A stretch of 36,642 nucleotides of DNA from a virus. Shown here in pieces: positions 2,257 through 26,485 of the stretch (positions are counted from its first letter, which is position 1; the number at the start of each line of letters is the position of its first letter). The notes under the pieces are model-generated. The model saw only the letters and a list, made by a program, of their open reading frames with translations. It was not told where the DNA came from and made no database searches. The stretch is from positions 1 to 36,642 of the IMG/VR virus record IMGVR_UViG_3300011116_000965. One strand, 5' to 3'. The position numbers and the translations under genes are program-made.

Positions 2257-3189
2257 ATGACTGACAAAATCCCAAGCCGGATGCACTTTCCTTACGCGCT
2301 CCGGGTAGCGCGCAGGGGCTTTGCAATTCGGCGACTCAGCTGGACCGACGTCTGGTGGGTTTGGCGTTTTGGCGTCATGATCCGCATCGAGACTGGCGAG
2401 CCTGACCGCGTCGTCACCTCGACCGACTACGAGTCCGAGGATCTACTGTCTTGGGATTGGACCACGCTTCCGGCAGGATGCGAAGCGCTCGACCAATCGC
2501 CCGACATGGCGGAGCTGCTGACCGTCCGGCCATACGATGGCCTGCCGACCTCCGCCGATCCGCTCGGCCGCAAATGTGACTTGCCGACCAAGGCGGAGAC
2601 AATGGACGCGGTTGACTGGCCAACGCTGGCTCCGCCGAAGGTTGAGCGCCGCCGGGTCCAGTGGGCGCGACCGCCGTTTCCGCCTGCTCCGCCGCTACCG
2701 CAGAGTGACTGGCCGGTCAGCCAGTGGGACTTAAAAAAGCGCCGACGATTACCGCCCGGCGTGCAACCGCCGCCGCCGCCGCAGGCCGTTTCAGTGACGT
2801 GGCCGAACTTTATGTACCGCACCACGCAGGGCGGATCACTTAATTTTGTGCTTGGCAGCGCAAGCTGCCTGCCGTCGGGTCAGGGGCAAAGCATAACGGG
2901 GACATACGGACATTTTATTATCACCGGCGGACCCGCCGAAGCTGATTATGAAATTACGATCGGCCTCGCGAATAACGCAAACAGCCCGTCGAGCTTTACC
3001 TCTACGTGGTGGGAAGGCACGCGCGGCCCGTCCAATGACTGGTGGGCCTACGACGTCGACGGTTTGAACATATCTTACGAGGGCGGATCTGCGTCGATTC
3101 CGGCAGCGCTCCGCTACAGCCAAGTCGGAGGTGGCGCATCGGGCTGGATTGTCCGCAACATCTATTTTCCTGACGTCTGCGGCAGCTGA
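2257..3189 (+). CDS. Tad2/DUF2829-like N-terminus, Pro-rich linker, beta-rich C-terminus
   Basis: 310 aa in three parts. Residues about 9-72 match the DUF2829 pattern: F11, A14-L15, G21, R25, W29, a hydrophobic strand at 38-44, then DLLSWDW at 62-68, where the family has 'D-L-L/x-A-x-D-W'. Some DUF2829 proteins are Tad2, which binds the signal molecule of Thoeris defence. Residues about 118-180 are rich in Pro, Trp and Arg and look like a linker, including a PPPPP run. Residues about 180-310 are Gly/Ser/Trp-rich and probably beta-structured, with no family recognised; their codons are more A/T-rich than the neighbours, which hints at separate acquisition. It overlaps the glycosyltransferase start by one base. 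The domain call is from pattern memory, not a search. Confidence 0.5.
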   Translation: MTDKIPSRMHFPYALRVARRGFAIRRLSWTDVWWVWRFGVMIRIETGEPDRVVTSTDYESEDLLSWDWTTLPAGCEALDQSPDMAELLTVRPYDGLPTSADPLGRKCDLPTKAETMDAVDWPTLAPPKVERRRVQWARPPFPPAPPLPQSDWPVSQWDLKKRRRLPPGVQPPPPPQAVSVTWPNFMYRTTQGGSLNFVLGSASCLPSGQGQSITGTYGHFIITGGPAEADYEITIGLANNANSPSSFTSTWWEGTRGPSNDWWAYDVDGLNISYEGGSASIPAALRYSQVGGGASGWIVRNIYFPDVCGS

Positions 3190-4187
3190 TGAAGCGGCTC
3201 GACCCAAAACACGTCCGCGCAAAGTTCCGCGCACGAAAATCACGACCGCCTGCGGTGCTGGACCGCGCCGAGTCGGTGGAGCTAGGAGCCGTGGAGCAAC
3301 GCGCGCGGGAAAACATGCGCACCGGCCAACGTCCGGCGGCGAGCGGCAGGCTGAGAGTCGACGCGCTGGTCTGCGTCGCCACGCGTGAGGTTGCCGGAGA
3401 TCTGGCGCGGCTGATTCCGACGGCGCAATACCATATGCCGGAGCGGCCGCTCCATATCGTCTGTGACGCTGAGACTGGCAATTACGCACGCGCCATCTGC
3501 ACTCCGCTCGGTCTCGACAACGTCATCGCTCACGAGTGGCTGACGGCCGAGTCTCTGGCCATGGCTACATCGAGGCTCCGTCGCGTCGTCGAGCACAGCG
3601 ATTATTGGAAGCCCGCGCCACTCTGGTGGAAAATCGAAGGCCTCCGCAGGATCGTCCGACACTACAACGGCAACAAGGGCGTGCTCATGGTGGACTCGGA
3701 TATCGTTTTTGCCGCGCCCGTCACCGACTCATTCGTCGGCGTGGATACCGTGCTATCTCCGTTCCACTGGCCGGACCCAAACCTCAAGGTGCAGCGGTCG
3801 CCGCAAGACAAGACTATGATCCCGATCGCCGAGCGCGACGGTTGGTATAACGCAGGCTACCTACTGACGCGCTCAAGCGCCGTCTGCGACGCGTGGCTAG
3901 ACCTCTACGAGCGCGGAGTCGGCGGCTTTTACGAGCAGTGGATTCTCGGTCATCTGCCCGGCCTCTGCCGTCACGACATTTTCGGCACCGCGCATAACTG
4001 GGGCCAATGGAGGCGAGAGGTGCCGCGTGAGGACGTCGTCAGTCTACACATCCACGCCGCGACAAAACACAAGCCGCCCTTCGCGCTGGCGGTCCAGCAA
4101 CGGGCCGACTTCGAGGCCGAGCGCGCCGTCACGGCTCTTGCGCGTTTTGCCAAATTCACCGGCAGCCTGCCAACGCTCAACGAATGA
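3189..4187 (+). CDS. GT-A type glycosyltransferase (GT8-like)
   Basis: 332 aa. A basic N-terminus (1-55) precedes an alpha/beta nucleotide-sugar transferase core. The metal-binding DxD motif is in VLMVDSDIVF (D169, D171), followed by a GWYNAGYLL segment, where 'N-x-G' is typical for GT8-like acceptor-side loops, and a late LHIHAATKHKPP segment resembling the C-terminal His motif of these enzymes. It probably moves a sugar from a nucleotide donor to a protein or glycan acceptor in the cytoplasm. Overlaps of 1 and 4 bases tie it to the Tad2-like gene and the sulfotransferase, so the block is probably co-translated. Donor and acceptor cannot be told from sequence. Confidence 0.7.
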   Translation: MKRLDPKHVRAKFRARKSRPPAVLDRAESVELGAVEQRARENMRTGQRPAASGRLRVDALVCVATREVAGDLARLIPTAQYHMPERPLHIVCDAETGNYARAICTPLGLDNVIAHEWLTAESLAMATSRLRRVVEHSDYWKPAPLWWKIEGLRRIVRHYNGNKGVLMVDSDIVFAAPVTDSFVGVDTVLSPFHWPDPNLKVQRSPQDKTMIPIAERDGWYNAGYLLTRSSAVCDAWLDLYERGVGGFYEQWILGHLPGLCRHDIFGTAHNWGQWRREVPREDVVSLHIHAATKHKPPFALAVQQRADFEAERAVTALARFAKFTGSLPTLNE

Positions 4188-4855
4188 TCTGGCGAAACCA
4201 CAAAATCATTTTTTTGCATATCCCGCGGACCGGCGGCACCTCCCTGGAGATTGCGCTGTCAGGAGGCCGCGATCCGCTCGAGGTCGAGCAGGAAGAAGGC
4301 TACTGGCACAAGCACTTTGACGCGCTGCGCGCCGAGGCAATGTGGCCGGAGTTTGCCGCCCCTGACTATAGGGTCGTCGCCTTTGTTCGGCATCCGCTGG
4401 ACTTGGTTGCATCGCAATATCTCCAGACGCGAGCAAATCCGAGCGCGATCGGCTTCAACGCATGGATCCGGCGATGTCTTGAGGGCGGATATCCACTCTA
4501 CCCAGTATCTGCCGAGGTGGACGACTATATGTCAGAGCTAGTCCCGGCTGCATACTCGCGCACCTCCGCCGGAGACAGCCAACGCCGGTTTCTCGCGACT
4601 ACCAGTAGGCGGGAAATCCACATCTACAGATTCGAGCGACTCCGCGCCTCAATCAAAGCCGTCTGCGATCTGGCCGGGATAGCGGCGCCCTCACCGATGC
4701 CCGACTCCGGAATCAGGCTGCCGGGCGAGTATCCCGGCATCCCGCGAGACAAGCGCGGCGTCCTGCGCTACCGCGCCATGTACGAGCGCGACACCAAAAA
4801 GGCCGTGACGCAGCGACTCGCCGACGACTTAGCACTCTGGCAAAGCGCTCTATGA
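4184..4855 (+). CDS. PAPS-dependent carbohydrate sulfotransferase
   Basis: 223 aa. Residues 10-20, FLHIPRTGGTS, are the 5'-phosphosulfate loop of carbohydrate sulfotransferases (family form 'h-I-P-K-x-G-T/G-S/T'). FVRHPLDLVASQY (68-79) is the 3'-phosphate site, with R69 and S77 at the conserved places. A YRFERL segment near 148 matches the later conserved strand. The enzyme would transfer sulfate from PAPS to a sugar hydroxyl. It overlaps the glycosyltransferase before it and the small terminase after it (ATGA), so it belongs to the late operon. Sulfotransferases are rare in tailed phages; target and purpose are inferred only. Confidence 0.8.
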   Translation: MIWRNHKIIFLHIPRTGGTSLEIALSGGRDPLEVEQEEGYWHKHFDALRAEAMWPEFAAPDYRVVAFVRHPLDLVASQYLQTRANPSAIGFNAWIRRCLEGGYPLYPVSAEVDDYMSELVPAAYSRTSAGDSQRRFLATTSRREIHIYRFERLRASIKAVCDLAGIAAPSPMPDSGIRLPGEYPGIPRDKRGVLRYRAMYERDTKKAVTQRLADDLALWQSAL

Positions 4856-5463
4856 CCGCTGACACGCTCGCCGACGCTATATTGCAGCGCGATCTCGAAA
4901 ACCTGACTAAACGGGTCGAGGAGGGCGGGCGCTTGACCAAGGCGGAACGCGAGCTGCTCGAGCGAGCGGCCGGGCGGACGGATGAGCCGCCACCAGACAA
5001 GCCCAAGGCGATGGCTGGATGGGCGAAAAATTACGCGGAACTGGCAGTGGTGCTAGGCGTCTCGCGCAGGAGCCTAGTGAGTTGGCGTAAGTGCTCAGAC
5101 GCGCCCATCGCGCGGTCCGACGGCTCGCTTGATATTGCCGCATGGCAAGATTGGGTCCGAAAGCGCGAAGAGGGCCAAAAGACCACGCCGGACAACGACG
5201 AACTGAAGGCGAGAAAACTGCTGGCTGAGGTCGAAGACCGCGAATTGCGGGTTGCGATCAAGCGCGGGGATTTTATTCCAATTGAGCTAGTCGCCAACGA
5301 GTGGACCACGCGGGTGGGCAAAGCGGTTGCCTTGTTGCGCAACAAGTTTGAGAGCGAGCTGCCGCCGGTGCTTTCCGGCCTGGATGCGGCCGGTATCCAA
5401 GCGGAGTGTCGCAAGGCGATCGACGAGGTATTAACGCTATTGCACAACGACGATGCCAGCTAG
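4852..5463 (+). CDS. terS: Terminase small subunit (Nu1-like)
   Basis: 203 aa. Residues about 60-100 form a winged-helix/HTH (NYAELAVVLGVSRRSLVSW, then a DIAAWQDWV helix), like lambda Nu1, which binds the packaging start site. From about 115 a long helix (KLLAEVEDRELRVAIKRG) leads into the oligomerisation region typical of Nu1-like proteins. It overlaps the large subunit by 11 bases. One copy of the 16-bp palindrome CTTGTTGCGCAACAAG lies inside the gene at 5331-5346. Confidence 0.8.
   Translation: MTADTLADAILQRDLENLTKRVEEGGRLTKAERELLERAAGRTDEPPPDKPKAMAGWAKNYAELAVVLGVSRRSLVSWRKCSDAPIARSDGSLDIAAWQDWVRKREEGQKTTPDNDELKARKLLAEVEDRELRVAIKRGDFIPIELVANEWTTRVGKAVALLRNKFESELPPVLSGLDAAGIQAECRKAIDEVLTLLHNDDAS
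5331..5346. repeat. 16-bp palindrome, copy 1 (in terS)
   Basis: CTTGTTGCGCAACAAG, a perfect palindrome. Identical copies are at 12410-12425 and 33953-33968. Here it codes for LLRNK within the small terminase. Confidence 0.85.
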
Positions 5464-7261
5464 GACTCTCGACCAGATCTGGCGCGATTGCTGGCGACCG
5501 CCCGACCGTCGTCCTCCCTGGGCGTGGGCCGAGGAGCACATCGCCTCGATACCATATTCGCCCGTGCCCGGCCGCTTCCGGGCCGATAACTCGCCATGGG
5601 TCAAGGAGCCACTGGAAGCGTTGGTAGATCCAAACGTCCGCGTGGTGTGTTTGATGGCGTCGGTTCAATCAAGCAAAACCACGATCGCCGAAGTGGGCCT
5701 CTGCTACATCATCGCCAATTTGCCCGGCCCGACGCTCTGGCTTGACCAGACGGACGAGGACGCCCGCGACCAGGCGGAGAGCCGGATGGGTCTATTGTTT
5801 GGCGAGTGCGAGGCCGTCACCTCACTCTACCCGGCTGACCGGCACAAGATCAAGACCGCCACCAAACAGTTCACCAACGGCATGACCTTGTGGGTTTTGG
5901 GCGCACATAACAAAACCAACCTTCAGCGCCGATCCATACGTTGGCTGATCGGCGACGAGTGCTGGCGCTGGCCGAGTGGCCACATGGCCGAAGCCGAAGC
6001 TCGGGTCACGGCGTTCGGCTGGCTGGGCAAATGCCTATTTATGTCCCAGGGTGGCATTGCGGACGACGACATGCACAAGCGTTTTTTGGTCACCGACCAA
6101 CGCGAGTGGACGTTTGCCTGCCCAACATGCGAAGTGCGGCAGCCGTACAAGTGGAGCCAAGTCCAGTGGAGCCAAGACGCGCGCACTGACGACGGCTGGG
6201 ACTACAACGCAGTCCGCGGATCAACCGCGCTGGTCTGCGAGTACTGCGGAGAGCGTTTCACTGACGACGATCGCACGCGCCGAAAACTTAACTCATCTGG
6301 CGCTTATGTCAGGCAAAACGAAAACGCGGCACCCGAAAACGTAGGTTTTCACTGGAACGCGTTGTGCGCGATGAGCTGGGGACGGCTCGCCGAACTCTAT
6401 CTCCGCGCCAAAGCGGCCGCGCGTCTCGGTGACATCGAGCCGTTGCGGATCTTCTATCAGAAACGCCTCGGCCAGCCATGGGTGGAGGCATACGACGATT
6501 TCCGCGTCGACATCGAGCCGGGCCAGTTCGCTCTGGGCGATCAGTGGGAAAATGAGGCAGCCCTCGACCGATCCGGCCTCGTCTTGGCAGCTCCATACGA
6601 GCCAAGCATGGCATCCGCGCGGCTGCGTATTATCACGGTCGACTGCCAGATGGATCACTTGTTCGCGGTTGTCAGAAGCTGGGCCGCGGACGGTTCCTCG
6701 CGTTTACTCTGGCATGAGCGCATCCTGACCTTCACAGACGTCGACGATATGGCGCAAAAATACGACGTTCACCGGTCGCTTGTTTTCGTCGACGCCGGTC
6801 ACGCCACCTATGAGGTGTACAAAGCCTGCGCGGCTAAGGGCTGGACGGCACTCATGGGCGATCGACGGCCGGTCTACAGTCACCGTCTGCCGTCGGGCCG
6901 TCAGGTCTACCGGTTCTACAGCCCAAAACGGAAAGTGGTTTTGACCAAGAGCCAAACCGCCAACGTCTTTTATTGGTCGAACCTCAACATCAAAGATGTC
7001 CTCGCCCGGCTGCGGCGCAACCAAGACTCGAGCCGCGGACCAACGTGGGAGGTCCCAGCCGACGCCGGAGAGGACTATCTGAAACAGCTGGAGAGCGAGC
7101 GCCGAGTAAAAAAAGCCGACCGCTGGATCTGGGAGCAGATCGGCGATCGCCCAAACCACTATTTTGACTGTGAGGCGATGCAAATCGTCGCTGCCTGTAT
7201 GATCAAACTCGTGGGCCGAGACGCCAGCCCTGACGCGACAACAGAAACGGCCACAGATTGA
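5453..7261 (+). CDS. terL: Terminase large subunit (GpA family)
   Basis: 602 aa, close to the usual 600-640 for lambda gpA relatives. The ATPase part has a deviant Walker A (VQSSKT, 71-76, for the usual Q-x-G-K-T/S) and Walker B IGDEC (D168, E169). A zinc-ribbon pair CPTC (223/226) and CEYC (262/265) sits between ATPase and nuclease, as in GpA homologues. The nuclease part starts near 400 with ITVDCQMDH, and a second acidic strand VFVDAGH follows. It cuts concatemers and drives DNA into proheads together with TerS. The stop codon overlaps the TTGAC start motif of the next gene. Confidence 0.95.
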   Translation: MPARTLDQIWRDCWRPPDRRPPWAWAEEHIASIPYSPVPGRFRADNSPWVKEPLEALVDPNVRVVCLMASVQSSKTTIAEVGLCYIIANLPGPTLWLDQTDEDARDQAESRMGLLFGECEAVTSLYPADRHKIKTATKQFTNGMTLWVLGAHNKTNLQRRSIRWLIGDECWRWPSGHMAEAEARVTAFGWLGKCLFMSQGGIADDDMHKRFLVTDQREWTFACPTCEVRQPYKWSQVQWSQDARTDDGWDYNAVRGSTALVCEYCGERFTDDDRTRRKLNSSGAYVRQNENAAPENVGFHWNALCAMSWGRLAELYLRAKAAARLGDIEPLRIFYQKRLGQPWVEAYDDFRVDIEPGQFALGDQWENEAALDRSGLVLAAPYEPSMASARLRIITVDCQMDHLFAVVRSWAADGSSRLLWHERILTFTDVDDMAQKYDVHRSLVFVDAGHATYEVYKACAAKGWTALMGDRRPVYSHRLPSGRQVYRFYSPKRKVVLTKSQTANVFYWSNLNIKDVLARLRRNQDSSRGPTWEVPADAGEDYLKQLESERRVKKADRWIWEQIGDRPNHYFDCEAMQIVAACMIKLVGRDASPDATTETATD

Positions 7262-12436: not shown

Positions 12437-12745
12437 ATGAGCCGGTATACTGAAATCGAAGCCGACTTGGCCGAGGTCCTTGCCGACATTGGCTTGTCCG
12501 TCACTTGGGATGGCGACGATTACGACGCCATGGTTAGCGAGCCCAGAGTAAATTTCGATTTACAGTCCGGCGGATTTTCGGCCGACGCGGATTTTTCAGT
12601 CAAGATCCGCCGAATGGACCTGCCCGCGGAAGGCGGACCGGCGCTCAAGGATATCATCACTATCCAAGGCGCGAGCTACGTCGTCCGCGGTATCACGGAC
12701 GCTCCGTCTAGCCCTCTACTCGTCTACCACGTCGCCAGAAAATGA
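12437..12745 (+). CDS. Head-tail joining protein (gpFII-like, probable)
   Basis: 102 aa. A short helical N-terminus ([16 protein letters not shown]) is followed by beta strands, including [11 protein letters not shown] and [14 protein letters not shown], where a late 'G-x-x-Y-x-V' strand is common in head-tail connectors of the gpFII type. Position after capsid and cement and before the tail-terminator-like domain supports this. It overlaps the next gene by an ATGA junction. No unique motif, so moderate certainty. Confidence 0.5.
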
Positions 12746-15294
12746 ACGCCTCCGTCGAACTTGGTTTTAGGAATTGGCTCGACGACTTGGTCGAGACGCC
12801 AGTATTTACGGGCTCAAACGACGGCGAGGTCCCGGCCGACGCGCTCGCTATTATTATCAGCTGTCCGATGCTCGAGACGGTCGTGCTCCCGCTATACCGA
12901 GCAACGGTCGAGGTCGTGGTGCAGGGTCCGGCGAGCCACGAGCCGATCCAGGATTACCGAGACGTAGCGGCCGAGGTGCTCGACTACCTCCGCGCCCAGA
13001 GCCTTGGCGCACTGGCCGATGACCTACTGGCCGCGTCTGACTATTATTTCGGCGGCTTGTGGGTCGCGCAAAGTCAGGAGTCGGTCGAAGACGAGTATTG
13101 GCGTCATACTATAGAGCTACGGGTCGGCCTCAAGCGCGAACAGGACGGCACGCTCTGGCGTAACGGGCTGAGCGCCTACGAGATCGCCGTCGTGAATGGC
13201 TTCGACGGCACCGAGGAAGAGTGGCTTGAGTCGCTGGCTGGGCCGCCGGGCGCACCCGGCAGCGCCGGCGCACCCGGAGCACCCGGAGCACCCGGAGCGC
13301 CCGGAGCGCCGGGCGAGACGATTACTGCAATCACCGACAACGGCAACGGCACCCTGACCGTCACGACAAGCGCGACGAGTTACGGACCGTTCCCGTTGCT
13401 GAACGGTCCCGCCGGACCACAGGGCGACCCCGGGCCGCCGGGCGACGACGCTCTATGGAATTTCACAGGAGCCTACAACCCGGGGGCGGGTTATGCTGTC
13501 GGAGATGTCGCCACTTACGACGGCCAGACATGGTATAGGCTTGATTCGCACGGTGGCAACGTAGGGGATACTCCGGCGGAAGGACAATTCTGGACGTTAC
13601 TGTCGGCCAAAGGCGCTCTCGGCGAATCCGCCTACGATATTGCGGTCGCGAACGGGTTTCTGGGCACCGAGGCGGCGTGGTTGGCATCATTGGTTGGCGC
13701 TGCCGGAAGTCAAGGTCCGGCAGGCCCAGCAGGTCCCGCCGGAGAGGCTGGCCCGCCCGGCGCCGCAGGCGCGCAAGGTCCCGCCGGAGCTACAGGCCCG
13801 GCGGGTCCGGCCGGTCCAAAGGGCGACACGGGCGACACCGGCCCAGCTGGCGCAACGGGAGCTACAGGCCCGGCAGGTCCGGCAGGCCCCGCTGGACCGA
13901 CAGGCTTGACCGGAGCTACAGGCCCCGCAGGTCCAAACTCGGTCTCAACCTCGACCGGATCGACGATCACGGGGCTGATCAAGGGCGCGAGCGGAAACCT
14001 AGCTGCCGCCGTGGCCGGAACTGACTACGCTGCCGCCTCGCACAAGCACTTCCTGAGCGACAGTATGCCAGATTTGTGGGCGAATGGTGCTAATTTGGCA
14101 TACCGCTATGCTCAGCAGGATTGGTATTTGCAGGCTGGCACGCAGACCATCCGTGTTTACAAAGATGGCTCGAACTGGAAACTCAACTTTGTAAATGATG
14201 ATCCAGAAGATACACAAAACGTCACGATCACTGGCGGAACTGGTATTTATCCGTGGACGTCGCCCCAAAATTTCCGCGACGCAGGATGGACAGTAAGACC
14301 CGTGTTATTCGAGCTGCTGATTGACCAACTTGGCCCCCCAACAGACAACACAGACCTCAACGCCACTACATCGGCGCACGGGCTGCTTCCCAAACTTGGC
14401 GGCGGCACAACCAATTTCCTGCGAGCCGACGGAACATGGGCCGTCCCTCCCGGCGCACCGGCGCCGGTGAACATCGGCCTTTACACCGCCAACGACACCT
14501 GGACGAATCCCTCACCGAGCGTCCCAAAGCGGGTGTTTGTCCGGTTGGTCGGAGGCGGCGGAGGCGGGGGGAGCGGGCGTAAGGGCCCGGCTGGCGGTTT
14601 CCGGTGTGGTGGCGGAGGCGGTGCGGGTGGGTGCGTTGTTGAGTTTTGGAGCCTGACCACCGACTTGGGCTCGACGGTCTCGGTGACTATCGGGGCGGGC
14701 GGAACCGGCGGTGCGGCGGTCGCGACTAATAGCACCAACGGTGCCGCTGGCACGGCTGGAGGAGCCACTACATTCGGCGGCGGCACAGCTTCAGGAGGCC
14801 CGGGAGGTGGAGCCGGGACAGCTAGTAGCGGCACTGCCGGGTTCGGCGTTACTGGGGGCAATTTATTTGACGATGGCGTGTCCACCGGTAGTCATGGCGG
14901 GGCGGCAAGCACGTCGGGAGGCGTTGGGGCCAATGGCACTGGGACGGCGGGATCACTGCCGAGCGGGGGCGGCGCTGGCGGGGGCATCACTAGCACAAAT
15001 ACTAACTCCGCCGGAGGCTCGGGAGGTGCCGTAGGGTCTGCTGCCATTGGGTTGATTGCTGGCGGATCTGCTGGAGCAGCGGCGGGGAACGGAGGCGCAG
15101 GGAATGCTGGGCGCGGGGTAGGCACTGGTGGCGGCGGAGGTGGCGGTGGTGGGACCGGGAACGTAGGAGGAGGTAACGGAGGCGGATTCGGAGCCGGAGG
15201 TGGCGGCGGTGGCGGCATCCTGAATGACACCGCAGCCACTAACGCGGGCGGGAACGGTTCGCCCGGGTATGCACTCATCGTCACCTATCTATGA
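12742..15294 (+). CDS. Tail-terminator-like domain fused to collagen-like, Gly-rich tail fibre
   Basis: 850 aa, multi-domain. Residues 1-135 look like a gpU-type tail terminator (segments [36 protein letters not shown]). About 146-166 is a [20 protein letters not shown] motif, repeated at about 297-316; this unit often precedes collagen repeats in phage fibres. Collagen-like G-x-y tracts lie at about 166-191 and 322-400. About 237-290 resembles a CBM5/12-type sugar-binding module ([20 protein letters not shown]). A lower-GC insert codes about 434-533. Residues about 602-843 are a Gly-rich adhesin like those at T-even-type fibre tips, which form receptor-binding loops. Fusion of a tail completion domain to a fibre is unusual. 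Confidence 0.7.
13237..13940 (+). repeat. Collagen-type G-x-y coding repeats (two blocks)
   Basis: Blocks at about 13237-13315 and 13705-13940 repeat 9-base units such as GGAGCACCC and GCAGGTCCG, coding for G-A-P and G-P-A triplets. Such repeats vary in number by slippage, so the fibre shaft length probably differs among relatives. Confidence 0.8.
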
Positions 15295-25303: not shown

Positions 25304-26485
25304 TTATTCTTCGGACAACCTGCTTGGAGGGGCTTGGAGCTGCCCGCCAGCGTACCAGTCAAGGAGCGTCTTTGGGTCGTGGCGCGTGTAGTTGGCGGCG
25401 CTTTTGATGTCCCAACCAAGATCCCGAATGCACCGCTCGACGAACTGCCGCCGGAGCGCCTGGTTGGGTTTGCTGCGATGGGCCTCGTAGGCTGGCCCGG
25501 CTGGCAAAAACTGGCGCAGCCAGGCTGCATGGCGGCGCTTGACCAGGTCGAATCGCTCATTGTCGGTGCCCTCGACGACGTGAGGGCCGGGGCCGGCGAG
25601 CAGCTCGGCAGCTAGGTCGGCGGCGATCGGGAGGCGCGCGAGGGCGGATGGGTTTTTGCCCTGCCAGCCCTCGTCCGCCGTCAGGCAAAAAAACCACTGG
25701 CCTCCTGACTGAACGAGCCAGTCCTGCCGCGCGGCTACCGCCTCGGACGACCGCAGTCCGATATCTCGAAGCATGAGGTGCGCGCGCCAGAGACGCGGCT
25801 CGAGGTCTTTAGAAGCCGCAACGATCGCCGCCATTGCGTCGTCCGGCAGTGGGCGGTAGTCTGGCCGTCGTGACCGCGGCAGCTCGGCGCGCCGAAACCC
25901 GGCGATGGATGGCGGGATGGTCCACTGACTGAGCCAGCGCCGGTGCCTTGGGCCGAACATCGACCGCGCTGCCAGCAGGCACGTCCTTTGGCTGTACGGC
26001 GTCGTGGTGGCCGCGGCGCAATAGCGGTAGACGACGTCCTCGTCGAGCCGGTCGAGGCGGTGCTTGGCCGGGTCCAGACCTGCGAGCGTGGCGACCTTGA
26101 TTAAGGAGCGGGCGTAGTTGCGGGCGGTCGAGGGCCGGTCGGACTGAGCTTGGAACGCCGCGGCAAACTCCGCGATGGTCGGAGTCGGCTTGCCTCGTGG
26201 TCCCGGCCCGGCTGGCGTCCACTCGCGTCCTTGGTCATAGAGTCGCTGGATCACGAGCGCCGCCCTGCGCCGTGCCTCGCCCAGGTCGTCGGTCCGGAGA
26301 CTCCGGCGGGCCGGAGGGCGGTCTGGCATGTTGAGTCTGAGCCATAGGTTGGCCGAGTCGCTGCGTCGGCAGAGGTCGGCGCTCTGGCGCACCTTCTGGC
26401 CGCCGACGTGGACGGTCACGGTCACGGTCTCGACATGGGTCACGAGCCCAGACTGTGCTCGTTTTGTGCTCGAGGCAAGGGCCAA
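25304..26485 (-). CDS. int: Tyrosine recombinase (phage integrase)
   Basis: 393 aa. N-terminal about 20-90 is an arm-binding-like domain; 100-190 is the SAM-like core-binding domain (TIAEFAAAFQAQ). The catalytic domain has R245 (GLRSSEA), K277 (GWQGK), R345 (QALRRQF), H369 (YTRHDPKTLLDWY) and nucleophile Y378. Spacing H-Y (9) and R-H (24) fits the family. The residue three before R345, normally His, is Gln342. It acts at the adjacent attP to insert the genome at a tRNA-Leu gene. The start is uncertain: TTG at 26485 lies in a tandem repeat, and no ATG is available close by. Confidence 0.9.
   Translation of the reverse strand: MALASSTKRAQSGLVTHVETVTVTVHVGGQKVRQSADLCRRSDSANLWLRLNMPDRPPARRSLRTDDLGEARRRAALVIQRLYDQGREWTPAGPGPRGKPTPTIAEFAAAFQAQSDRPSTARNYARSLIKVATLAGLDPAKHRLDRLDEDVVYRYCAAATTTPYSQRTCLLAARSMFGPRHRRWLSQWTIPPSIAGFRRAELPRSRRPDYRPLPDDAMAAIVAASKDLEPRLWRAHLMLRDIGLRSSEAVAARQDWLVQSGGQWFFCLTADEGWQGKNPSALARLPIAADLAAELLAGPGPHVVEGTDNERFDLVKRRHAAWLRQFLPAGPAYEAHRSKPNQALRRQFVERCIRDLGWDIKSAANYTRHDPKTLLDWYAGGQLQAPPSRLSEE
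26453..26472. repeat. Arm-type direct repeat, copy 1
   Basis: CTGTGCTCGTTTTGTGCTCG, matched 19 of 20 by the copy at 26648-26667. The pair flanks the att core on both sides in the same orientation, as integrase arm sites do. It lies inside the integrase 5' end. Confidence 0.6.

Follow-up and report, generated by a model that had tools for sequence, protein, structure and literature searches.

In the virus record studied here (36,642 bases, in the following called the window), a predicted GT-A-fold glycosyltransferase (GT; ORF 3189-4187) and a PAPS-type sulfotransferase recognised by homology (ST; ORF 4184-4855) are encoded by two overlapping genes directly in front of the terminase genes, and both the enzyme classes and the linkage of the pair are well supported. 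We incline, with some reserve, to the view that the pair constitutes a cytosolic module which glycosylates, and then sulfates, a surface protein of the virion; the target protein, the reaction order, the sugar and the benefit are putative. Glycosylation of phage virions as such is known: in mycobacteriophages (Che8 and relatives), capsid and tail/tail-tube proteins are reported to be glycosylated, which has been linked to phage glycosyltransferases (Freeman et al. 2023, PMC10527164, as cited in PMC11256854 and PMC12619734). Its role would be of the same kind as that proposed here, whereas the mycobacteriophage systems, as described in these papers, are without a sulfotransferase and belong to other hosts. 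Concerning phage-encoded glycan sulfation, no description was found in the openly accessible literature (subscription papers lay outside the search).

The window contains tailed phage genes, namely a GpA-type terminase, a lambda-type portal and a tape measure, and an integrase-family gene at 25304-26485 (weak match); the phage is probably temperate. The large terminase subunit has at least 80 IMG/VR relatives and 16 genome relatives among the matches listed. Since its closer relatives in bacterial genomes all derive from Verrucomicrobiota (Akkermansiaceae, Akkermansia, Opitutales and one Spartobacteria genome), the host is probably a member of this phylum. The features at the beginning of the window are as follows:

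353-380, + strand: strong terminator-like hairpin upstream of the operon, with a 12-pair stem followed by a T-rich tail (consensus match only)
414-1031, + strand: DUF4417 / phrog_940 'nuclease' ORF, first gene of the operon (Pfam DUF4417 9e-23, phrog_940 1.9e-24)
1484-2254, + strand: Ig-like (He_PIG) protein (Pfam He_PIG 8e-10)
2257-3189, + strand: orf2257, with a weak Tad2-like N-terminal domain, a Pro-rich linker and a variable C-terminal domain; putative displayed substrate
3189-4187, + strand: predicted GT-A fold glycosyltransferase (GT), 332 aa, with D169-S170-D171 (predicted structure, PDB fold matches, homologues)
4184-4855, + strand: putative PAPS-dependent sulfotransferase (ST), 223 aa (L100 homology, phrog_3347, PAPS motifs)
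4852-5463, + strand: terminase small subunit, TerS (phrog_57 4e-9)
5453-7261, + strand: terminase large subunit, TerL, GpA type (Pfam GpA_ATPase 4e-35)

The seven genes form a tight run on the + strand, and from orf2257 to TerS each gene overlaps the next by 1-4 bases: orf2257 and GT share the sequence TGATG, and four bases are common to GT and ST (ATGA at 4184-4187) and likewise to ST and TerS (ATGA at 4852-4855), with TerL next. Both the four-base overlap and the attachment of the pair to the terminase genes in a late operon had been proposed in an initial annotation and are confirmed here. The stretch from 414 to TerL shows no promoter-like site on the + strand. For the Ig-like ORF, ATG 1484 is a more probable start than GTG 1178, because the homologues in sister phages begin at the same Met. 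GC and GC3 of GT and ST equal those of the rest of the phage, such that there is no sign of a very recent foreign origin.

Concerning the GT, the family libraries (Pfam, PHROG, NCBIfam) yielded no convincing match. An AlphaFold2 model, computed with three phage homologues, has a confident core (pTM 0.70, pLDDT 63.9) and low-confidence stretches at 1-47 and 192-222, plus shorter ones. Against the PDB, this model best matches glycogenin in Foldseek (E 8e-7) and LARGE1 in VIA-align (Z 11.9, 205 residues at 3.6 A); further GT-A matches in these two programs are GlyE and LgtC, and many viral glycosyltransferases are among the matches in the BFVD library. The motif D169-S-D171, noticed already in the initial annotation as that of a GT-A enzyme, is situated directly after the core strand 165-168 of the model, and both of its Asp residues are invariant in the homologues, which are 33-43% identical. 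The predicted fold and the DXD after the core strand are thus shared with GT8-type GT-A enzymes (glycogenin, LARGE1, LgtC, GlyE), whereas identity to these amounts to 8-15% only and the GT is without a Pfam family match. The fold matches span several families (GT6, GT8 and others), and for CAZy GT8 in particular no convincing Pfam or NCBIfam match was obtained. A search of the GT profile against PDB sequences returned only poxvirus F1 proteins, which are unrelated.

Concerning the ST, the best family match is phrog_3347 ('Galactose-3-O-sulfotransferase', E 1.4e-5). In Pfam, Sulfotransfer_2 (PF03567) is found with E 0.0066, missing the curated cut-off (17 bits vs 22), and Sulfotransfer_1 with E 0.03. 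Neither GT nor ST attains the Pfam gathering cut-off, which makes a reading by sequence alone uncertain; from the structure and profile comparison suggested earlier for both proteins, the GT-A fold of the model and the phrog_3347 match emerged, but no hit above the Pfam cut-offs. A bacterial homologue (L100) aligns to nearly the full length of the ST (BLASTP 5e-13, 29% identical) and is itself a clear Sulfotransfer_2 protein (61.1 bits, 2.3e-16), so that homology of the ST to this family is reached via L100, the formal family cut-off being missed. The motifs on which the initial annotation had based a PAPS-type sulfotransferase are both intact and normally spaced, namely the 5'-PSB loop IPRTGGTS at 13-20 and the 3'-PB motif FVRHP (R69)...S77. 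P14, T16, S20, R69, P71 and S77 are invariant across seven aligned STs, and His42/His44 are candidate catalytic residues. Among 200,000 composition shuffles of the ST, not one had both motifs at normal spacing, and among 353 six-frame open stretches of the window only the ST itself did; as the patterns were chosen post hoc, both counts are indicative only, and the homologues, the synteny and a pN far below pS are stronger evidence than the shuffle test. A single-sequence AlphaFold2 model of the ST, computed without an alignment, reached a pLDDT of only 36. Among PDB sequences, the best match of the ST profile was sulfotransferase 5x2b (E 0.016 only); matches to cGAS were judged to be due to chance, because they did not cover the P-loop. 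As single proteins, neither ST nor GT found anything relevant among PDB sequences.

The pair is not confined to the window contig, a point on which the initial annotation had made its proposal depend. A profile built from the window GT and the GT part of prophage copies (see below), and including no ST, matched four loci in IMG/VR, which represent three distinct phages (L109; L111; L110/L112). L110 and L112 carry the same gene and L113-L117 are duplicate records of the same phages, and neither were counted apart. In all three phages, an ST follows the GT and starts within its last four bases (ATGA); in L111 and L112, a second ST is situated behind the first. The ST of L109 is 31% identical to that of the window (2e-23). 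Additional GT profile scans returned the same phages. Scans of viral contigs with GT or ST as single proteins yielded nothing, such that the relatives were reached only by the profile with the prophage copies, and a scan with the Ig protein found no relatives either. No match to the window GT and ST, the GTs of L109 and L112, the second ST of L112 or the ST-like part of the prophage protein was found by tblastn in 50,697 phage records. Among 35 TerL-related viral records, many of them fragmentary, phrog_3347 was absent, and the GT profile had no match in 21 of them; the pair is therefore not general to this terminase clade.

The prophage copies are located in an Akkermansiaceae genome (UBA5020) whose TerL is 73% identical to that of the window. 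Two near-identical prophage ends (L106 and L107) encode a single protein of about 650 aa, consisting of an N-domain, a GT part (38% identity to the window GT, E 3e-28) and a C-part with the sulfotransferase-like motifs VRSWGTHL and LVRDPREVLVS. The C-part has no Pfam match and an hhalign probability of 5.7% against the ST profile; because this profile support is weak and the assignment rests on the motifs, a fusion of GT and sulfotransferase is graded as probable. One of the loci adjoins a tyrosine integrase, the other a serine recombinase. As the GT profile matched only this one of 388 Verrucomicrobiota genomes, and there beside such genes, the GT family looks phage-borne.

The genes next to the pair are in several cases virion genes. 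L111 and L112 exhibit the order tail protein (homologue of window 22395), Ig protein, Tad2-like/variable protein, GT, ST, ST, which agrees with Ig, orf2257, GT, ST in the window. In both, the Ig-like homologue thus lies two genes upstream of GT, and the gene directly upstream is by position and layout the counterpart of orf2257, homologues of which also directly precede the fusion gene in L106/L107. The orf2257 homologues diverge strongly in their C-terminal parts. L109 has a different neighbour, which is not orf2257-like: here the pair follows right after the second copy of a head-associated gene (5009-5404 vs 2502-2846, 47% identical; phrog_673 match for the first copy), whose other copy precedes the major head protein. 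This recurrence beside virion-protein genes in unrelated viruses suggests that some phages provide their particles with a coat of sulfated sugars.

Between L111 and L112, synonymous sites of the enzyme genes are saturated (pS 0.83-0.88), and pN amounts to 0.15 in GT, 0.25 in the first ST and 0.17 in the second; purifying selection on all three is strong. The block from the Ig protein to the second ST is 64-82% identical at the protein level vs 43% in the flanking tail protein, for which reason it is considered to act as a unit. Saturated pS, low pN and block identity together imply that the enzymes are under selection and travel with two displayed-type proteins. The N-terminal part of orf2257 and its homologues (window 2257-2610; L004 4725-5072; L107 3-1061) gave repeated weak Tad2-like matches, with PF11195 (Tad2-like, Thoeris anti-defence) at E 0.16-0.46 in orf2257 and two homologues; in orf2257 this domain is part of a larger, probably displayed protein.

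According to the proposed mechanism, GT and ST would be made late, together with the packaging proteins, as a glycan-building module. The GT would move a sugar from a cytosolic nucleotide sugar onto a phage structural protein, or extend an existing sugar, and the ST would sulfate the added sugar with host PAPS, giving an acidic sulfated glycan on the virion. Both donors, nucleotide sugar and PAPS, are cytosolic, virion proteins are likewise synthesised in the cytosol, and no membrane segments were found in GT and ST. For the supply of PAPS, the related Akkermansiaceae genome encodes an APS kinase; a recognisable one occurs in only 18 of 59 sampled Verrucomicrobiota and in none of nine viral records. 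The acceptor would most likely be a surface-exposed neighbour product, i.e., orf2257 or the Ig-like protein. The probable benefit would be altered adsorption to, or shielding from, the environment of sulfated polysaccharides around the host. A virion protein as target, one of the options of the initial annotation, is thus favoured by the gene order in related phages, but the acceptor itself we only infer.

The other option, that the pair alters a surface or capsular glycan of the host and thereby mediates superinfection exclusion during infection or seroconversion in the lysogen, is rather unlikely. It could draw on the integrase-family gene of the window, on the recombinase genes adjoining the prophage copies, which is a usual site of conversion genes, on the GT-A fold, which is common to many surface-glycan transferases such as LgtC, and on the PHROG category of phrog_3347 ('moron, auxiliary metabolic gene and host takeover'). 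However, the genes lie inside the packaging operon, overlap their neighbours by 1-4 bp and are without a promoter-like site of their own on the + strand, so that they are unlikely to be switched on in a lysogen; the enzymes are without membrane segments, and it is virion genes, not surface-glycan export genes, that recur as linked genes across phages. The host-surface claim thus found no support, and late co-expression with packaging genes fits modification of the virion better than surface conversion of a lysogen.

Sulfotransferases are reported from other phages as well, namely in marine phage genomes, including Sulfotransfer_3 genes of OM43 phages, where 'the biological function ... remains unclear' (PMC10580990), and as annotated Sulfotransfer_2 genes in Stenotrophomonas phage DLP_6 and Phage CBW1004C-Prop1. 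Together with phrog_3347, these modify the earlier statement that such enzymes are very rare in tailed phages, which is only partly right. By sequence they belong to the same PAPS sulfotransferase class as the window ST, whereas those of DLP_6, CBW1004C-Prop1 and the OM43 phages are annotated or reported singly and the window ST forms a two-gene module with a GT. In CBW1004C-Prop1 (L124 3886-5516), the Sulfotransfer_2 gene shares a single base with the end of the gene for the major head protein and has no annotated GT alongside, and an ST can therefore occur alone. Accordingly, the substrate of the ST could be a protein tyrosine or a small molecule, with the GT acting elsewhere and the operon being shared as small modifying cargo only, and the ST subfamily is compatible with various acceptors. 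We regard such separate targets as unlikely, given that all three phages found by GT alone have GT and ST side by side with an identical overlap, that both are probably fused in the prophage protein, and that the closest PHROG family bears the name of a galactose sulfotransferase. Hypermodification of phage DNA, by a sugar on a modified base and then sulfate, is highly improbable: phage glycosyltransferases putting glycans on DNA are reported (Pyle et al. 2024, as cited in PMC12619734), but a reading of the ORF list of the window brought to light neither a pyrimidine hydroxymethylase nor a thymidylate-synthase-like gene, and the gene order goes with virion proteins rather than with replication genes.

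Modification of a displayed virion protein is also indicated by the closest sister phages (L002-L011, L050; TerL 76%). In these, the Ig protein is retained, as is the N-terminal part of orf2257, and the slot before TerS is occupied by a mucin-like Pro-rich ORF in which a PPPSS-type repeat occurs 9 or 15 times, followed by a fusion of a methyltransferase and a sialyltransferase-like GT29 domain (Pfam GT29 E 1e-14). The two genes are situated at 5072-7167 in L004 and 4961-7167 in L005, and are also found in L002, L003, L007, L011 and L050; more distant relatives possess other genes in the slot. Like the window pair, the fusion places a glycan-type enzyme between a displayed-type protein and TerS, but it is unrelated to the window enzymes (sialyltransferase-like and methyltransferase vs GT-A and ST). 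That one slot beside one and the same displayed-type gene holds two unrelated sets of glycan-type enzymes suggests that the product of this gene is modified.

A wider generalisation is tentative and, on balance, doubtful: phages of Verrucomicrobia-type and other bacteria might coat virion surface proteins with sulfated glycans ('sulfo-mucins') by means of an exchangeable enzyme slot (GT and ST, or methyltransferase and sialyltransferase-like) beside the gene of a fast-changing displayed protein, their particles mimicking or binding the sulfated polysaccharides around the host. Verrucomicrobiota live amid sulfated mucus and algal polysaccharides. The conserved pair with its fixed overlap, its linkage to virion genes and the probable fusion lead to a testable question, i.e., whether a sulfated sugar is present on the particle. 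If so, tailed phages would have sulfation, besides glycosylation, as a modification of the virion, which would bear on the adhesion of phages to sulfated mucus and algal polysaccharides and on their passage through them. Concerning further possible acceptors, the window encodes at 12742-15294 a collagen-like repeat protein with a weak CBM_5_12 match, which is likely a fibre.
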